41,122 bases of DNA from a bacterium (GTDB lineage Bacteria; Hydrothermota; Tepidihabitantia; SM23-42; JAOAFX01). Below are positions 14,372 through 27,276 of the stretch, piece after piece (the stretch's first letter is position 1; every line of letters begins with the position of its first letter). The notes below the pieces were generated by a model. The model did not search any database. It was given only the letters and a program-made list of their open reading frames with translations, and was not told where the DNA came from. Where the stretch lies: positions 1 through 41,122 of the forward strand of contig DASVHD010000020.1 of assembly GCA_036382775.1 (NCBI GenBank). The letters are read 5' to 3'. Both the position numbers and the translations under genes were made by a program.

Positions 14372-14530
14372 ATTTATGTGATTAAGCTATTAGGTAATTG
14401 AGTAATTGATGTTATTAACGGATAGCGAAATTTATTAAGTATTTTTTTTCTTTTCTGCCAACCACATCTTTATCTTAACCCTCACCCCGACCCTCTCCCT
14501 GCCTAGGGAGAGGAAAAAGCGAGGGATATT
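14372..14530. repeat. Nonamer array and CTCTCCC...GGGAGAG palindrome
   Basis: TGTGATTAAGCTATTAGG and TAATTGAGTAATTGATG-type units with period about 9 occupy 14378-14430. At 14479-14525 is CCCTCACCCCGACCCTCTCC followed by TAGGGAGAGGAAAAAGCGAGGG, the family that also lies inside the Wza-like gene. Confidence 0.7.
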
Positions 14531-14599: not shown

Positions 14600-14977
14600 T
14601 CACTGTACTAACTCCGACGGTTTGCTCAGCATGCCCGAGATTTTCTCGATCAGTTCATCGTAGGATTTCGATATGGTGAGGGCTGTTTCCGGTTTTATAT
14701 ATTTGGCATCGACCGCCGCTTGTATCCGTTTCTGAGTTTCCGCCGCATCGAGGGACGCGGAATTGAGCTTATCCATGAACACCGGATGGTTCGTGCGGTT
14801 CTGCCAGGCATCGAGCATGTTATGGCAGACCAAGCTTGAATAATAAATCATTTCCTCGGTGATGCGGCGGGGATCGTTATGGGGCAAATGCGGCGTGAGC
14901 TCAAAGACCTTCATCGCGACATTCATCGCCGTGGTGTAAACGTTGTGAGCCTCGAGAAGCTTGACGGCGGAAAGCAT
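14600..14977 (-). CDS. Four-helix-bundle (S23-like) protein, KLNDAE-type subgroup
   Basis: The 125 residues match the second main subgroup of the four-helix-bundle family known from 23S rRNA intervening sequences: VYTTAMNVAMKVFELTPHLP, a helix ending in VCHNMLDAWQNR, then FMDKLNSASLDAAETQKRI and a closing helix YDELIEKISGMLSKP. Family members form pentameric bundles and may bind nucleic acid; their cell role is not settled. The region 5' of this gene is the micro-hairpin array at 14981-15081, so the gene lies directly against the array. No Shine-Dalgarno sequence is evident. With the genes at 15098 and 18746 this makes three members of the family within 5 kb. Confidence 0.75.
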   Translation of the reverse strand: MLSAVKLLEAHNVYTTAMNVAMKVFELTPHLPHNDPRRITEEMIYYSSLVCHNMLDAWQNRTNHPVFMDKLNSASLDAAETQKRIQAAVDAKYIKPETALTISKSYDELIEKISGMLSKPSELVQ

Positions 14978-14980
14978 GAT

Positions 14981-15081
14981 TATTCCTTCGGAAATAAAGA
15001 TATTCCTACGGAATGGAAGTTAACCACGGAAGGTTGGAAGCTAATGCTTCGCATTGGAAGTGATCGCTGCACGATGGAATC
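14981..15081. repeat. Micro-hairpin array, left side, linker TGGAAGT
   Basis: Consecutive tiny hairpins are separated by GGAAGT: ATTCC-tac-GGAAT (15002-15014), AACC...GGTT (15022-15035), AATGC-ttc-GCATT (15043-15055) and ATCG...CGAT (15063-15075). An ATTCC-ttc-GGAAa hairpin lies at 14982-14993. Stems differ from unit to unit while the linker (GGAAGT at 15015-15020 and 15056-15061) stays constant. It lies just past the stop codon of the four-helix-bundle gene at 15098. Confidence 0.8.
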
Positions 15082-15097
15082 GAACCAAAGGATTAAT

Positions 15098-15487
15098 CTA
15101 TACCGCTTGAGTATCATTTTTATCCCGTGCTTTACGAACATTTGTCATCATTCTATTTAACAAATATCCGATTTCTTGCATCTTTATTTTGAAATGCCGG
15201 TGTTGTTTTATATCTATGTACTTATGAGCTAATGCATCACCAAAGTGATTGCGCAATTCACCAAGAGAAGCACGTGCACGTTCATAGAATGTAAGTTTAT
15301 CATTAAAATGAAATCTGTAGAAACCTTCGCTAATCTCAGACGGCACACTGCGAGCTGAACGGTGCATTTGACTCGCGAGATCATACTTCTCATTACCTGG
15401 AAAAGTCTTAACGAGCTGCGATACCTCCAGCGACAGTTTGTTTGCTAATTGCCAGACTTTAAGATCTTCGAACTTTTTTACATTCAT
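15098..15487 (-). CDS. Four-helix-bundle (S23-like) protein
   Basis: This is a standard four-helix-bundle family member: VKKFEDLKVWQLANKLSLEV, LVKTFPGNEKYDLASQMHRS, ARSVPSEISEGFYR and FYERARASLGELRNHFGDAL, then a final helix to RKARDKN. I start at the ATG at 15487 (MNVKKFEDLKVWQ), the normal family start; the frame stays open another 16 codons. The gene is enclosed by two micro-hairpin arrays whose linker is TGGAAGT on the downstream side (14981-15081) and ACTTCCA on the upstream side (15548-15615), that is, inverted. A consensus promoter lies at 15790-15817 with a leader of about 300 nt. The pattern suggests gene and arrays form one element. Confidence 0.88.
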   Translation of the reverse strand: MNVKKFEDLKVWQLANKLSLEVSQLVKTFPGNEKYDLASQMHRSARSVPSEISEGFYRFHFNDKLTFYERARASLGELRNHFGDALAHKYIDIKQHRHFKIKMQEIGYLLNRMMTNVRKARDKNDTQAV

Positions 15488-15547
15488 ATAATTTTCTGTT
15501 TTCAAAAGAACATTATCATTGTGCATAGATTCCATGTTTTGTACATA

Positions 15548-15615
15548 ACTTCCATCACGTTAGAATAACATGATCACTTCCATGATGGAATCATAAATTC
15601 CATCTCGACAGAGAT
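15548..15615. repeat. Micro-hairpin array, right side, linker ACTTCCA (inverted)
   Basis: Units read ACTTCC (15548-15553), ATCA...TGAT (15554-15574), CACTTCCA (15575-15582), ATGAT-gga-ATCAT (15582-15594), AAATTCCA (15595-15602) and ATCTC-gaca-GAGAT (15602-15615). The linker is the reverse complement of the one on the other side of the gene. Confidence 0.8.
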
Positions 15616-15830
15616 CGTATTTTCTTTTTGCTTTTTCCGCAAAAAGGAAAAAGGCTACCGCCCTTGTCAGGACGGCGTACGCATGCAAGTTGATATTGCG
15701 CCGCCCGCCACTGACCATTACTTTAGTGCCTCTCTTTTCGATCCACAACAGTACATATTAGTTAGTCAGCGCAAAATACTCCAGTATAGATTATATATAT
15801 TGAAGCGGAATTGTCAAGGAATAAAAGCAC
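15616..15830 (-). other. Structured leader region of the four-helix-bundle transcript
   Basis: Between promoter and the right-hand array lie two further hairpins: an 8-bp stem CTTTTTCC/GGAAAAAG (15631-15638 and 15646-15653) and a 6-bp stem with one G-U pair in GTCCTGACAAGGGC (about 15659-15676). A 62-codon frame (15560-15748, minus) crosses the region but runs into the array and has no family features, so I treat the segment as leader RNA. Confidence 0.45.
15790..15817 (-). promoter_or_regulatory. Promoter reading toward the four-helix-bundle gene
   Basis: On the minus strand: TTGACA (15817-15812), 16-nt spacer, TATAAT (15795-15790), both perfect consensus. The predicted start near 15783 gives a leader of nearly 300 nt before the ATG at 15487. 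Confidence 0.7.
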
Positions 15831-16077
15831 ATTCCGTTGGAATGGAAGTAAGCCATTTAGGCTGGAAGTGAATGCTACGCATTGGAATTGAGCGTTTCCC
15901 CTAACTGGAACAACCCATTATCAAATATATTCTTAATGATGCACGCTGGAACTCTGTAAAATTCCACGCGAAGCGTATATTATATTCCAGTGCGAAGCAC
16001 TAACTTCTATGGCGAAGCCATAACTTCCAGACGGAGTCTCGCTTCCATTCCGAAGGAATTACTTGCAGCGCTACGCT
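15831..16077. repeat. Gene-less double micro-hairpin array
   Basis: Left half with GGAAGT linkers: ATTCC-gtt-GGAAT (15831-15843), AGCC...GGCT (15851-15863), AATGC-tac-GCATT (15871-15883). Right half with inverted linkers: ACGC-gaa-GCGT (15966-15976), AGTGC-gaa-GCACT (15989-16001), ATGGC-gaa-GCCAT (16009-16021), AGAC-gga-GTCT (16029-16039), ATTCC-gaa-GGAAT (16047-16059) and AGCG-cta-CGCT (16067-16077). The centre (about 15895-15960) holds no gene. The last hairpin contains the wzc stop codon. Confidence 0.8.
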
Positions 16078-18749
16078 TCTTTTCTATAGTACTTACTATA
16101 GTATTTGTAATAACTTTGGTAGTAATACGAGCCCGGGGACAAGGGTACGCCGTTCAGCACCATGCCGATGACGTTCGCCCGGGCATTGGTCAGAATGTCT
16201 TTCGTGTCCTGCAGTTCCTTTAGAACCGTCCTGCCGTACCGCGCGGTCAACAGCACCGCGTCCGCGCTGCGCGCCGAGTATGTCGCGTCAGCAAAAAGAA
16301 GCATGGGCAGGCCGTCAATGATGACGTAATCGTAATGTTTTCTGAGTTCATCCAGCACCTGGTTCATTTTGACCGATTCTAAAAAGACAAAGGGATTGGG
16401 CGGCACACTACCCACGGGGAGCAAGGATAGACTGCTCGTTACGGCAGATTTATCGTTGGGATCGTGATTAACGTTTTTATCGTATTCCGGCTTGTAGGCG
16501 ACGACCGCATCCTTTATCGTTGATTTCCCCTGCAGGACATCGAACAGGCCGATTTCTTTTTTCATTTTTACGACGTCGGTGAGGTGCCCTCTTTTTTTTC
16601 TGAAATCCGTGTCCACGACCACGACCTTCTTCCCCACCGCGCTCATGGTCACGCCCAGGTTAAGCGATACGTAGGTTTTGCCTTCTTCAGGGCCGGCAGA
16701 AGTTACGTACACGACTTGATAGTGTTTGTCAGGATGGGCGAATTCGATATTCAATGACAGCTTGCGGAAACTCTCGAATTCAGCCGATGAATCGTAGCTG
16801 ACGGTCCGTACGTGATAATAACCGGATTTGCGCTGAGGCCGCGGAAGGACCACGGAGAACGCGGAACGGAAAAACCTTACGCCTTTCTTGGCAAGGTTAT
16901 AATCCCGCGGCGCCGGATCATGACCTTGCTTTACGTGATCATTTTTTGTATCTCCACCCCGCCTTTTTCCTCCCCCTCGATGGAGGTTAGAGGTGGGGCC
17001 GTCATCGCCGTTTGATTCGACCAGCGGTATAGAAGCGAAGATCGAAAGACCAAGCTTGGTCTTTATGACCTCGAGGTCTTTGACAGTATTGTCGAAATAT
17101 TCGGCGATAAAGATCCCGGCGCCGCCCACGAGTATGCTTATAACCAGAGCCAGGATAAAACTGGTCAGGCGGCCGCGGGAATTGACCGGCGTGCCAGACA
17201 CTAAAGGCGGGTTTATTATTTTAAGATCCGAGGTAACGCCGGCTTCCTGGACCCTCGTTTCCTCAAGCTTTTCCGCAAAAAACGTATACAGTTTTTCCGC
17301 GGTTTCACGGTCACGCTCAAGTCTTGCCAGACTTAATTCGTCAACCGGCACATTCTCCAGTTTGTCCTGGAGCAGTGATATTTGCCTTTCTACGCTCGCG
17401 ATCTCAGTGCTGATAGTCGACATACGCCGGCTTATTTCTTCCTTCATTTGACCTTTAATGCCATCTAATTTAGCTCTTATTTCAAGCACTTTAGGGTGTT
17501 CGTTAGAGTATTCCTTAAGCTTCCCTTTGAGCTCGGCTTCAGCCTGGAAAAACTGATTATAGAGGTTTTGCAATGCCGGCGATGACAGCAAGGTCGCGGC
17601 GAAATTGGGCAGGGTATCAGCCACCGCGTATTCGACACTGGAAACCAGATACCGGTTAAGACTTCGGATTATCTGTTCTTCGACCTGGATCTGGTTTTTG
17701 CGCGATTCCAGAGCCGAAACCTGAGAGATCAATGCCTGGGTTGACGCTTGAAGATCCACGATCTTTTTTGTTTCCTTAAATATCTTTATATTGTCTTCAA
17801 GCTCGGTAAGCTTGTTCTGATACAGGGCAAGCTGAGATTCAATAAAGGTACGGGACTGGATATAGGCCAGGGATTTTTCGCCTATGTCTTCCTTGATGAT
17901 CTGCGCCGAGAGCGCACGCGCGATCTTGAGCGCCTCCTGGGGATTTCCCCAGTACAGGTTGATCCTCAGGATGCCGATAAGGTTCATACCGGGGAAAAGG
18001 GTCTTTGCCGTCACCAGTTTCTTGGATACGCCTTCGCCCGAACCAGGGATCTCGCCGGAACCAATACCCTTGTCAATGCGGTCGGCTTCCAGCACGTTTA
18101 TCGAGGTCGAATTCCGCAGGGCTAATGCCATGCGGTCGCGGGGATAGAACACTACCGTGTAGGTATGGTCACGCGTGATCTTCTTGAGCGCCGTCACTGA
18201 AAAAGTAAGGGCGCCACTGCCCAGGTCAACCTCGTGTTCCGTACCGTACCGCGTGAGCGGGACAATCGTATAGCTATTCTGATGGAGTGAATAGCCGTTC
18301 GCGGTCACCCGCAGTTTATAGGGCCCCAGCTGGTTTTGGAAATCGCTCTTCATCCGGGTCCTGATGTCTATGTCAGAGATCGTTTTACCGCCGTTCTTGA
18401 TATTAGCGCACAAGGACAGCGTGTCCACGACCTTGCTCGTGAAATTGACGCTCAGGAGCGTGGAGATAACGCGCTGGGTAATGGAACCGATCTGGGTCGT
18501 GGGTGTTTCCGAAAATTGGTTGAAGAACCCTTCCACCGGCTGTTCCTTGGAAACGCCAAGGTCAAAGGTCGCCATGTAGGCGGGATTGTACGGCCGGGTA
18601 ACGCGGTACACGATAATGCCCAGGAAAACGGGGATCGCGAGATAGAAGAACAGCCGGCGCCGGCGCAGGAAAATACCGTACAGGTCGCGGAGATGGAGAG
18701 AAGACTCCTCATCGCCGTTTCCGTTGTTGATGCGCGGTTGATCGTTCAT
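16071..18749 (-). CDS. Polysaccharide co-polymerase/tyrosine autokinase (Wzc-like)
   Basis: The 892-residue inner-membrane protein has a Wzz domain (SLHLRDLYGIFLRRRRLFFY, TM at about 34-50), a long periplasmic coiled coil (about 270-510), a second TM (about 529-552) and a BY-kinase domain. Kinase motifs are SAGPEEGKTYV (Walker A, about 684-694), VVVVDTDFRKK (Walker A') and YVIIDGLP (Walker B). The tail is a tyrosine cluster (YYYQSYYKYYSKYYRK), the usual autophosphorylation site. It should drive and size export of a capsule or exopolysaccharide together with the Wza-like protein at 19301. The ATG at 18749 follows AAGGTG. Unusual: residues about 582-602 (HRGGGKRRGGD), in the linker between TM2 and kinase, are encoded by a GC-rich intergenic-type palindrome (16951-17000). 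Confidence 0.9.
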   Translation of the reverse strand: MNDQPRINNGNGDEESSLHLRDLYGIFLRRRRLFFYLAIPVFLGIIVYRVTRPYNPAYMATFDLGVSKEQPVEGFFNQFSETPTTQIGSITQRVISTLLSVNFTSKVVDTLSLCANIKNGGKTISDIDIRTRMKSDFQNQLGPYKLRVTANGYSLHQNSYTIVPLTRYGTEHEVDLGSGALTFSVTALKKITRDHTYTVVFYPRDRMALALRNSTSINVLEADRIDKGIGSGEIPGSGEGVSKKLVTAKTLFPGMNLIGILRINLYWGNPQEALKIARALSAQIIKEDIGEKSLAYIQSRTFIESQLALYQNKLTELEDNIKIFKETKKIVDLQASTQALISQVSALESRKNQIQVEEQIIRSLNRYLVSSVEYAVADTLPNFAATLLSSPALQNLYNQFFQAEAELKGKLKEYSNEHPKVLEIRAKLDGIKGQMKEEISRRMSTISTEIASVERQISLLQDKLENVPVDELSLARLERDRETAEKLYTFFAEKLEETRVQEAGVTSDLKIINPPLVSGTPVNSRGRLTSFILALVISILVGGAGIFIAEYFDNTVKDLEVIKTKLGLSIFASIPLVESNGDDGPTSNLHRGGGKRRGGDTKNDHVKQGHDPAPRDYNLAKKGVRFFRSAFSVVLPRPQRKSGYYHVRTVSYDSSAEFESFRKLSLNIEFAHPDKHYQVVYVTSAGPEEGKTYVSLNLGVTMSAVGKKVVVVDTDFRKKRGHLTDVVKMKKEIGLFDVLQGKSTIKDAVVAYKPEYDKNVNHDPNDKSAVTSSLSLLPVGSVPPNPFVFLESVKMNQVLDELRKHYDYVIIDGLPMLLFADATYSARSADAVLLTARYGRTVLKELQDTKDILTNARANVIGMVLNGVPLSPGSYYYQSYYKYYSKYYRKEA
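16951..17000. repeat. Intergenic-type palindrome inside the wzc-like gene
   Basis: CTCCACCCCGCC, CCTCCCCCTCGATGGAGG and TTAGAGGTGGGG form one palindromic unit of the same family as 13336-13383, 28205-28265 and 40757-40811. It is read in frame and adds a short Gly/Arg-rich segment. Confidence 0.7.
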
Positions 18750-19216
18750 GGAAACACCTTAGCACGCTGCGCTGTAGACACATTCGGCACTGAAGCCGAA
18801 TTGCAGTCACACTTCGTTGAAGTCACGCTGCGCTGCCTTAGAATTACAATATCTTTTCGGATACGGGTAATGAGATTTGTCAGTTTTACTGAGATTATAT
18901 GTACGTTCTTTTGAAACCTGGCATGATCAACTGCATTTAGGTATCCAACATTGAAGGCTTCTATTAAATGATTGGCACATTCTTCAGCTGATCCGCTAGC
19001 TATATTATAAAATGAAATCTTTTCTTTCGGAAAACGTCTTCCCCATCCTTCGGAAATATTCGCAGGTATAGATCGTGCAGCTCTCAACAGATCATCAGTA
19101 AGGCTATATTTTTCTTTTGTTGGAAATTTTTTTGTTAATTCATAAACATCTTTGGAAAACTGTGAGGCTAATTGCCAAACGATCAGATCCTTAAAGCTTT
19201 TCAATTTCGTTTTCAT
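18746..19216 (-). CDS. Four-helix-bundle (S23-like) protein between the wza- and wzc-like genes
   Basis: Canonical family sequence: KLKSFKDLIVWQLASQFSKD, VYELTKKFPTKEKYSLTDDL, RAARSIPANISEGWGRR, ISFYNIASGSAEECANHL. I start at the ATG at 19216 because the family begins there; the frame upstream runs into hairpin repeats. The expected family end is near NLITRIRKDIVILRQ. The remaining 28 or so residues (SVTSTKCDCNSASVPNV...) are read from the hairpin array at 18761-18836, and the stop codon overlaps the wzc ATG (ATGA at 18746-18749). So the gene appears inserted between two genes of one export operon and its tail has been extended through its own flanking repeat. No Shine-Dalgarno sequence is visible. 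Confidence 0.88.
   Translation of the reverse strand: MKTKLKSFKDLIVWQLASQFSKDVYELTKKFPTKEKYSLTDDLLRAARSIPANISEGWGRRFPKEKISFYNIASGSAEECANHLIEAFNVGYLNAVDHARFQKNVHIISVKLTNLITRIRKDIVILRQRSVTSTKCDCNSASVPNVSTAQRAKVFP
18761..18836. repeat. Micro-hairpin array, left side, linker TGTAGACAC/TGCAGTCAC
   Basis: Stems ATTCGGC/GCCGAAT (18782-18801) and ACTTC-gtt-GAAGT (18811-18823) are separated by TGTAGACAC (18774-18782 region) and TGCAGTCAC (18802-18810). Shorter CGC/GCG-type stems lie at both ends. The architecture equals the TGGAAGT arrays but the linker is different. Confidence 0.7.
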
Positions 19217-19230
19217 ATTATTCAGCCAAA

Positions 19231-19296
19231 GGCATGAATGCAGGCGCGCAGCGCCGTGTCTGCAGGCATGTAATGCCATATCTACAGCGTAGCATG
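19231..19296. repeat. Micro-hairpin array, right side, linker GTGTCTGCA/ATATCTACA
   Basis: GCAT-ga-ATGC (19232-19241), GGCGC-gca-GCGCC (19243-19255), linker GTGTCTGCA (19256-19264), GGCAT-gta-ATGCC (19265-19277), linker ATATCTACA (19278-19286), then GC-gta-GC. These linkers are near-reverse complements of those on the other side of the gene at 18746-19216. Confidence 0.75.
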
Positions 19297-27067: not shown

Positions 27068-27237
27068 AATTGATTCACTGCGCGAATAGAAGTTAGCTTT
27101 TCAAGCTGGAAGTTATCCTTTCAGGATGGAAGTTACGCTTCGCGTGGAATTTTACAAATTTCCAGCGTAAAACGCTCAATTCCAATGCGTAGCATTCACT
27201 TCCAGCGGCTTTTTGCTTACTTCCATTCCGAAGGAAT
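27067..27237. repeat. Gene-less double micro-hairpin array
   Basis: Left half, linker GGAAGT: AGCTT-ttc-AAGCT (27095-27107), ATCCT-ttc-AGGAT (27115-27127), ACGC-ttc-GCGT (27135-27145). Centre GGAATTTTACAAATTTCC. Right half, linker ACTTCCA/AATTCCA: AGCGT-aaa-ACGCT (27164-27176), AATGC-gta-GCATT (27184-27196), AGC...GCT, ATTCC-gaa-GGAAT (27225-27237). The right half is nearly the reverse complement of 15831-15895. Confidence 0.85.
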
Positions 27238-27276
27238 AATTAATACTTCGATCAACGGTCTACGGTTCGCGGTCCT

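Follow-up and report, generated by a model that had tools for sequence, protein, structure and literature searches.

The stretch analysed here, referred to as the window, is a contig of 41,122 nt (C20) from a genome of the phylum Hydrothermota (G000; 3.06 Mb, 51 contigs, 95.6% complete), and it contains an element, E1, in which a gene of the S23 (23S_rRNA_IVP) family of four-helix-bundle proteins lies between two inverted arrays of short repeats. Here it is proposed, with moderate confidence, that E1 is a selfish genetic element situated outside rRNA and similar to the intervening sequences (IVS) of 23S rRNA, whose pentameric S23 protein would read its own spaced repeats, probably in RNA. Because the layout recurs across phyla, with a motif particular to each S23 lineage, S23 is probably the missing partner of the short intergenic repeat arrays of bacteria. 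The proposal builds on direct observation of the gene, its inverted arrays, the potential of the two arms to pair, the generality of the layout, the lineage-specific motif and its polarity, the gene-free relatives and the changing occupants of one junction, and from these sequence comparisons binding of the repeats by S23 and mobility of the element are predicted.

The preliminary description, made from the sequence alone, had recognised an S23-like gene in E1, and a profile search confirmed this assignment, with a score of 94.5 bits against PF05635 (curated cut-off 33.8). The open reading frame (ORF) is open over 15098-15535 on the minus strand, the ATG at 15487 being the probable start. The AlphaFold2 monomer model (pLDDT 97) matches the pentamer structure of XCC0516 (2GSC) with a template modelling (TM) score of 0.93 and 28% identity in the structural alignment, which assigns it the four-helix-bundle fold, and it also matches BT_0352, the diversity-generating retroelement (DGR) protein Avd (4DWL) and the Avd chains of DGR ribonucleoproteins. 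The genes adjoining the locus are surface-polysaccharide export genes; an Rfam search of the window gave zero matches, and insertion into an rRNA gene, as in IVS, was not found there.

On the sense strand of the S23 gene, hairpins alternate with GGAAGT in the 5' flank (hairpin-GGAAGT-hairpin-GGAAGT) and with ACTTCC in the 3' flank (hairpin-ACTTCC-hairpin-ACTTCC), in units of 18-20 nt. Both the constant linker, in its two orientations, and the positions of the arrays (14982-15085 and about 15515-15614) had been described correctly. The 3' arm includes the hairpins AATGC-TTC-GCATT, AACC..GGTT, ATCG..CGAT and ATTCC-TAC-GGAAT. Stems vary by unit (AATGC/GCATT, ATGAT/ATCAT, AACC/GGTT, ATCG/CGAT) around the constant linker, and the claim that they nevertheless remain self-complementary held up, with a Watson-Crick stem of at least 4 bp in seven of the nine inter-linker spacers (shuffled mean 1.3; p=0.0002). 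Across all arrays of the GGAAGT class, a stem was present in 30 of 47 spacers, a count in which a few overlapping spacers were entered twice, against 5.6 after shuffling and a maximum of 15 in 2000 shuffles. Loops of 3 nt, thought to predominate, occur in about half of the stems, whereas the others have loops of 5-13 nt. The inversion of the linker between the two sides allows GGAAGT to base-pair with ACTTCC across the S23 gene. When folded jointly, with the ORF swapped for a short loop, the arms reach -65.9 kcal/mol (singly -27.5 and -27.3; shuffled arms -42.4 +/- 4.3; z=-5.4), and the full E1 transcript gives a similar fold (z=-2.9, 20 shuffles). The predicted structure is rod-like, short linker helices following one another with a hairpin branching off at each joint, and forms a ladder of branched junctions; as in IVS, the ends of E1 are thus complementary, with the S23 ORF in the loop.

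The inverted layout is general among S23 genes, as was found by scanning related genomes for flanking repeats, a check that the preliminary description had suggested. For the phylum, 150 nt of 5' flank were locally aligned to 150 nt of 3' flank in reverse complement; flanks paired from mismatched S23 genes set the threshold (99th percentile), and genes on the same contigs served as controls. Inverted flanks were present at 48 of the 98 S23 genes of the phylum (controls 4/352; Fisher p=3e-32; direct orientation 9/98) and at 36 of the 71 from other phyla (controls 1/149; direct orientation 8/71), the latter sample coming from the 27 of 40 genomes where S23 was found and including Chloroflexi, Cyanobacteria, Bacteroidetes, Planctomycetes, Kiritimatiellae, Peribacteria, one gammaproteobacterium and others. 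At a few loci (L161, L301 and L285) the flanks carry the repeat in direct, not inverted, orientation. The commonest period of the arms is 7 nt (23 of the 55 arms with a clear period), followed by 8-9 or about 20 nt, and most S23 arrays consist of 7-9-nt units with a constant core and a variable spacer. The micro-hairpin is not the defining feature, most S23 genes having 7-9-nt repeats without hairpins; micro-hairpin arrays follow the core-and-spacer scheme too, as a variant whose spacer is longer and self-complementary.

The motif follows the lineage of the protein. At least two repeated 7-mers were common to 1.4% of locus pairs below 50% S23 identity, 20% at 50-70% and 75% above 70%. Between different genera and without homologous neighbours, the motif was shared by 22 of 114 pairs with at least 50% identity versus 56 of 3894 with less than 40% (p=5e-17), which indicates that protein and motif travel together to unrelated places. 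The global rank correlation between S23 identity and motif sharing is weak (0.06) because the effect is confined to identities above 50%. Additionally, S23 was found in 25 of the 31 genomes of this phylum with GNNGTAN heptamer arrays, compared with 46 of the remaining 116 (p=8e-5). One genome of 1.2 Mb (G139) contains at least 24 heptamer-array matches, and the S23 protein search listed no S23 match in it.

For the linker class of E1, the nearest relatives of the main S23 protein (57-64% identical), located in three distant genomes, are also accompanied by GGAAGT-class arrays at unrelated sites, and the four mutually nearest S23 proteins (G000, G142, G017 and G074) all have arrays of the GGAAGT or TTCCA class. 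Among the other 146 genomes of the phylum, the end motif ATTCCNNNGGAATGGAAG had one match; it lies immediately behind an S23 gene with 63-64% identity to the main S23 and is followed by about 10 ACTTCCA-hairpin units. Together with the inverted arrays around S23 genes in general, these arrays at unrelated sites strongly support the earlier idea of a single element made up of the gene and its arrays. Beyond the phylum set, a protein-pattern scan of contigs with the main S23 gave no confirmed match, and among the at least 119 stretches listed in a scan of wider genome contigs for three ACTTCCA linkers there were tandem repeats or chance matches and no varied hairpin array, so that the GGAAGT linker class looks rare outside the phylum.

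The E1-type structure also exists without the gene, as two elements in the window (E2 and E3) and a half copy on contig C33 of the host genome. E2 and E3 align with a score of 174, the best of 200 shuffles being 76. The motif ATTCCNNNGGAATGGAAG occurs at five sites in the host genome and at none in the reversed control. The window has four of these sites, one in E1, two at the ends of E2 and one at an end of E3, and the half element has the fifth. These are dispersed homologous copies with terminal inverted repeats (ATTCCNNNGGAAT), as in miniature inverted-repeat transposable elements (MITEs). Gene-free arrays of the class are also present in G071 and G017. The existence of arrays away from S23 genes was initially taken as refuting the association of gene and arrays, and the refuting observation named in the preliminary description does hold in part; the gene-free arrays are, however, mutually homologous and lie mostly in genomes with a cognate S23. 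An S23 at least 57% identical to the main one is found in only four of the 147 genomes, which include three of the four genomes with pattern-found GGAAGT-class arrays (p=3e-5).

The 5' arm is G-rich and the 3' arm C-rich in 57:4 of 61 informative loci, compared with 66:61 in the controls, and S23 never lies antisense between co-directional neighbours (64:0 vs 248:28, p=0.004). Both observations suggest that the element works as its sense transcript, and the earlier suggestion of an RNA handled by the protein fits this polarity, the co-direction with host operons and the IVS precedent, with binding as a prediction. The presence of S23 is sporadic (71 of 147 genomes by protein search), and its occupancy of a site changes: at the wza-wzc junction of one genus (L245-L249, in G089, G085, G087, G088 and G084), two species have GAAGACA-type S23 elements, two have GCATAG-type elements and the fifth has no S23. 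A single arm left over from a lost GCATAG-type array persists beside the GAAGACA-type element in G085. The search for an empty site at this junction showed turnover and no clean insertion boundary.

In the proposed mechanism, an element in which a single S23 gene is bracketed by two inverted arrays of its own specific repeat would be embedded between operon genes, along host transcription. Like its solved relative, the S23 protein would assemble into a pentameric ring, and this ring may bind the constant part of the repeat in transcribed RNA; five subunits and regularly spaced short motifs suggest one motif per subunit, in a manner analogous to the trp RNA-binding attenuation protein (TRAP). 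The arms would fold into a rod with side hairpins, which could keep the host mRNA functional or offer a cut site for RNase III, and the complex of S23 and repeat would promote the spread of its own element, with gene-free arrays of the same motif as putative derivatives on which the cognate S23 would act in trans. More tentatively, and with belief falling a little short of even, S23/IVP genes may represent, as its autonomous members, a large class of selfish elements that act at the RNA level and have gone unrecognised; in this class a lineage would be a protein plus the repeat read by its ring, and the scattered arrays of Xanthomonas, cyanobacteria and others would be non-autonomous relatives.

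Several points weigh against an S23 element of this kind. Inverted arrays above the threshold are lacking at about half of the S23 genes, gene calls were mechanical with crude gene starts, and arrays also occur in six genomes without an S23 match by protein search (G139, G007, G012, G040, G044 and G046). Locus pairs and genomes are phylogenetically non-independent, and therefore the p-values overstate independence. The data are compatible with either RNA or single-stranded DNA, polarity alone being insufficient to separate them. Neither a target duplication nor an exact empty site was found for E1 and its relatives, so that the terminal inverted repeats of the preliminary description are putative in the transposon sense. 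Finally, the S23 protein of the Coxiella 23S IVS is seemingly not made in vivo (PMC4990558).

The same observations could be explained if S23 were a host regulator, a ring-shaped RNA-binding protein that regulates itself via its own arrays, with the solo arrays as a TRAP- or CsrA-like regulon spread by selection for regulation. Strand polarity, position within operons and the matching of motif and protein would agree with this, as would the translational regulator proposed by MacGregor for TAACTGA arrays (PMC4679880) and the mostly transcribed state of GGGAATC arrays found by Rehm et al. (PMC4692102). However, the sporadic presence of S23 (in fewer than half of the genomes), its several lineages per genome (eight genes here) and the fact that sister species have S23 of differing types at one junction look like mobile elements and not like a conserved regulator, and MacGregor saw no pattern among downstream functions (PMC4679880); a host regulator is thus considered rather unlikely. 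That the arrays came first, by slippage or another repeat system, and that S23 inserts preferentially between existing inverted arrays would account for the solo inverted arrays E2 and E3, for the 70 inverted GGGAATC pairs of Xanthomonas campestris (Rehm et al., PMC4692102) and for the position of the lone Xanthomonas S23 found, between such arms. This order of events leaves unexplained why motifs at unlinked sites are shared only among related S23 proteins, and insertion into one array predicts direct arms, which are rare in both samples, making it improbable.

Explanations by other mobile systems fare worse. A non-autonomous transposon or MITE moved by a transposase encoded elsewhere, with S23 as a passenger, would be in line with the dispersed full-length relatives E2 and E3 and their matching terminal hairpins, but motif and S23 lineage move jointly, and one transposase could hardly serve terminal motifs that differ between lineages; this is regarded as very improbable. 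An Avd-type part of a DGR or other retroelement, moved by reverse transcription, would explain the fold match to 4DWL and the DGR ribonucleoprotein chains and the bAvd profile match, although the latter is below its cut-off (30.7 bits for the main S23; cut-off 40). A host reverse transcriptase is unlikely as the copying enzyme, because the PF00078 domain was absent from a genome 95.6% complete, and it was rejected as the mover; moreover, reverse transcriptase was found in 12 of 147 genomes vs 71 with S23, and a retroelement origin of E1 is hardly credible. The IVS-like S23 element remains the favoured explanation.

The host genome has eight S23 genes of several lineages, and the features of the window are given in Table 1. 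The second S23 gene belongs to another lineage with a different linker, and its 5' array motif resembles that at the S23 loci of G089 and G085; its 150-nt flank score (18) is not significant because the 3' arm overlaps the ORF. The second S23 frame reads through its own 3' array (18746-18842) to a stop that overlaps the start of the next gene, so the array would be translated as a C-terminal tail. For the third, divergent S23 gene no cognate inverted array was detected, its inverted score of 16 being at background level. Behind it, at 14477-14520, there is an imperfect inverted C-rich/G-rich array (CCCTCACCCCGACCCTCTCCC..GGGAGAGG), which presumably resembles a repeat seen in many bacteria. Further S23 genes of the host genome lie between inverted arrays with units of their own: ATAGTC, GGTTAAAT, and CTGTAGACAC with hairpins. 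Two loci with differing motifs in distant genomes, L240 (G000:C31) and L166 (G132:C199), apparently occupy the same succinyl-CoA ligase-like metabolic gene pair, an apparent hot spot.

Table 1. Features of E1, its gene-free relatives and the other S23 genes in the window.
Feature	Position	Strand	Details
Main S23 (23S_rRNA_IVP) four-helix-bundle gene	15098..15487	minus	129 aa; PF05635 E=5.5e-27
5' arm of E1 (upstream of S23)	15515..15614	minus	hairpins ATGAT-TCC-ATCAT, ATCATGTTA..TAACGTGAT, ATGT..ACAT; linker GGAAGT
3' arm of E1	15002..15085	minus	inverted linker, ACTTCC on minus strand
Additional hairpin beyond 3' arm of E1	14982..14994		ATTCC-TTC-GGAAAT
E2, gene-free element	15829..16061		E1 linkers; each end carries a terminal ATTCCNNNGGAAT hairpin; RNA fold z=-6.5
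E3, gene-free element	27074..27240		full-length E2 relative, inverted, 11 kb away; RNA fold z=-5.1
Second S23 gene	18746..19222	minus	other S23 lineage, different linker; PF05635 E=7.8e-33
5' hairpin array of second S23 gene	19223..19294	minus	linkers CTGTAGATATG, CTGCAGACACG; lone-arm RNA fold z=-1.2
3' hairpin array of second S23 gene	18758..18842	minus	GTGACTTCA, GTGACTGCA, GTGTCTACAG
Third, divergent S23 gene, adjoining E1	14600..14977	minus	PF05635 E=1.1e-10

Catalogues of short intergenic repeat arrays exist for several bacterial groups and name neither a partner protein nor a mode of spreading; for S23 proteins, a structure has been available since 2006 and a function has not. Each S23 gene carries a predicted binding motif on either side, and the lineage-specific match of S23 and motif makes both the partner of the arrays and the function of S23 directly testable. 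If the proposal is true, the known RNA-protein elements, whether selfish or regulatory, would gain a widespread class, and an origin of the DGR protein Avd would be suggested.

Among known systems, the closest are the IVS with an S23 ORF of Coxiella and Leptospira, whose complementary borders fold to a stem-loop and which are sporadic and thought to be selfish (PMC4990558). E1 shares with them the S23 ORF between complementary sequences within a host transcript, having as differences its location in protein-coding operons, its ends made of arrays of a lineage-specific repeat and its gene-free relatives in the same genome. XCC0516, a pentameric ring (Lin et al. 2006, as cited in PMC4990558), is of the same family and fold, and its repeat context is not mentioned in the papers found. 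In the genome of Xanthomonas cannabis, the single S23 gene found, a relative of XCC0516 between accB and accC, lies between GGGATT-type arrays, with the flanks GGGATTAGGGAATC.. and ..GAATCCCGAATCCC, also given as GGGATTAGGGAATCGTGATTCGGGATTCG and CGAATCCCCAATCCCGAATCCCGAATCCC. Their repeat is the heptamer GGGAATC, published for X. campestris as an orphan that is found at 186 places and in 70 cases forms inverted pairs (PMC4692102); its arrays are mostly transcribed according to Rehm et al. (PMC4692102). Other orphan heptamer arrays are GGGGA(C/T)T of Nostoc (PMC4692102) and TAACTGA of Beggiatoaceae (PMC4679880). Similarly to S23 arrays, heptamer arrays have a constant core plus a small variable spacer, a 7-nt period and a position between aligned ORFs, and those of Xanthomonas are further alike in being mostly transcribed and often in inverted pairs; however, they were described as orphans without a protein partner, and the class in the window has 18-20-nt units with hairpins. 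The terms S23 and 'intervening' are absent from the texts of PMC4692102 and PMC4679880, and in a 2023 study '23S rRNA IVP' appears in a figure legend of CRISPR-array-linked genes, with no further mention in the text consulted (PMC10910872). No paper linking S23 to these repeats was found in a partial coverage of the literature, and an earlier report is possible.

The resemblance to Avd lies in a homologous fold and in membership of an RNA-protein complex, which for Avd includes a reverse transcriptase, unlike in the host genome studied here. The small dispersed repeats of Nostoc are very small, partly hairpin-forming sequences inside heptamer short tandemly repeated repetitive sequences (STRRs), for which movement at the RNA level has been proposed; these repeats and STRRs are not known to be linked to S23. 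TRAP is a cyclic oligomer that reads spaced GAG/UAG triplets, and although its fold is unrelated and the binding by S23 is a prediction, both systems would combine, by analogy only, a protein ring with an RNA carrying regularly spaced short motifs and variable spacers.
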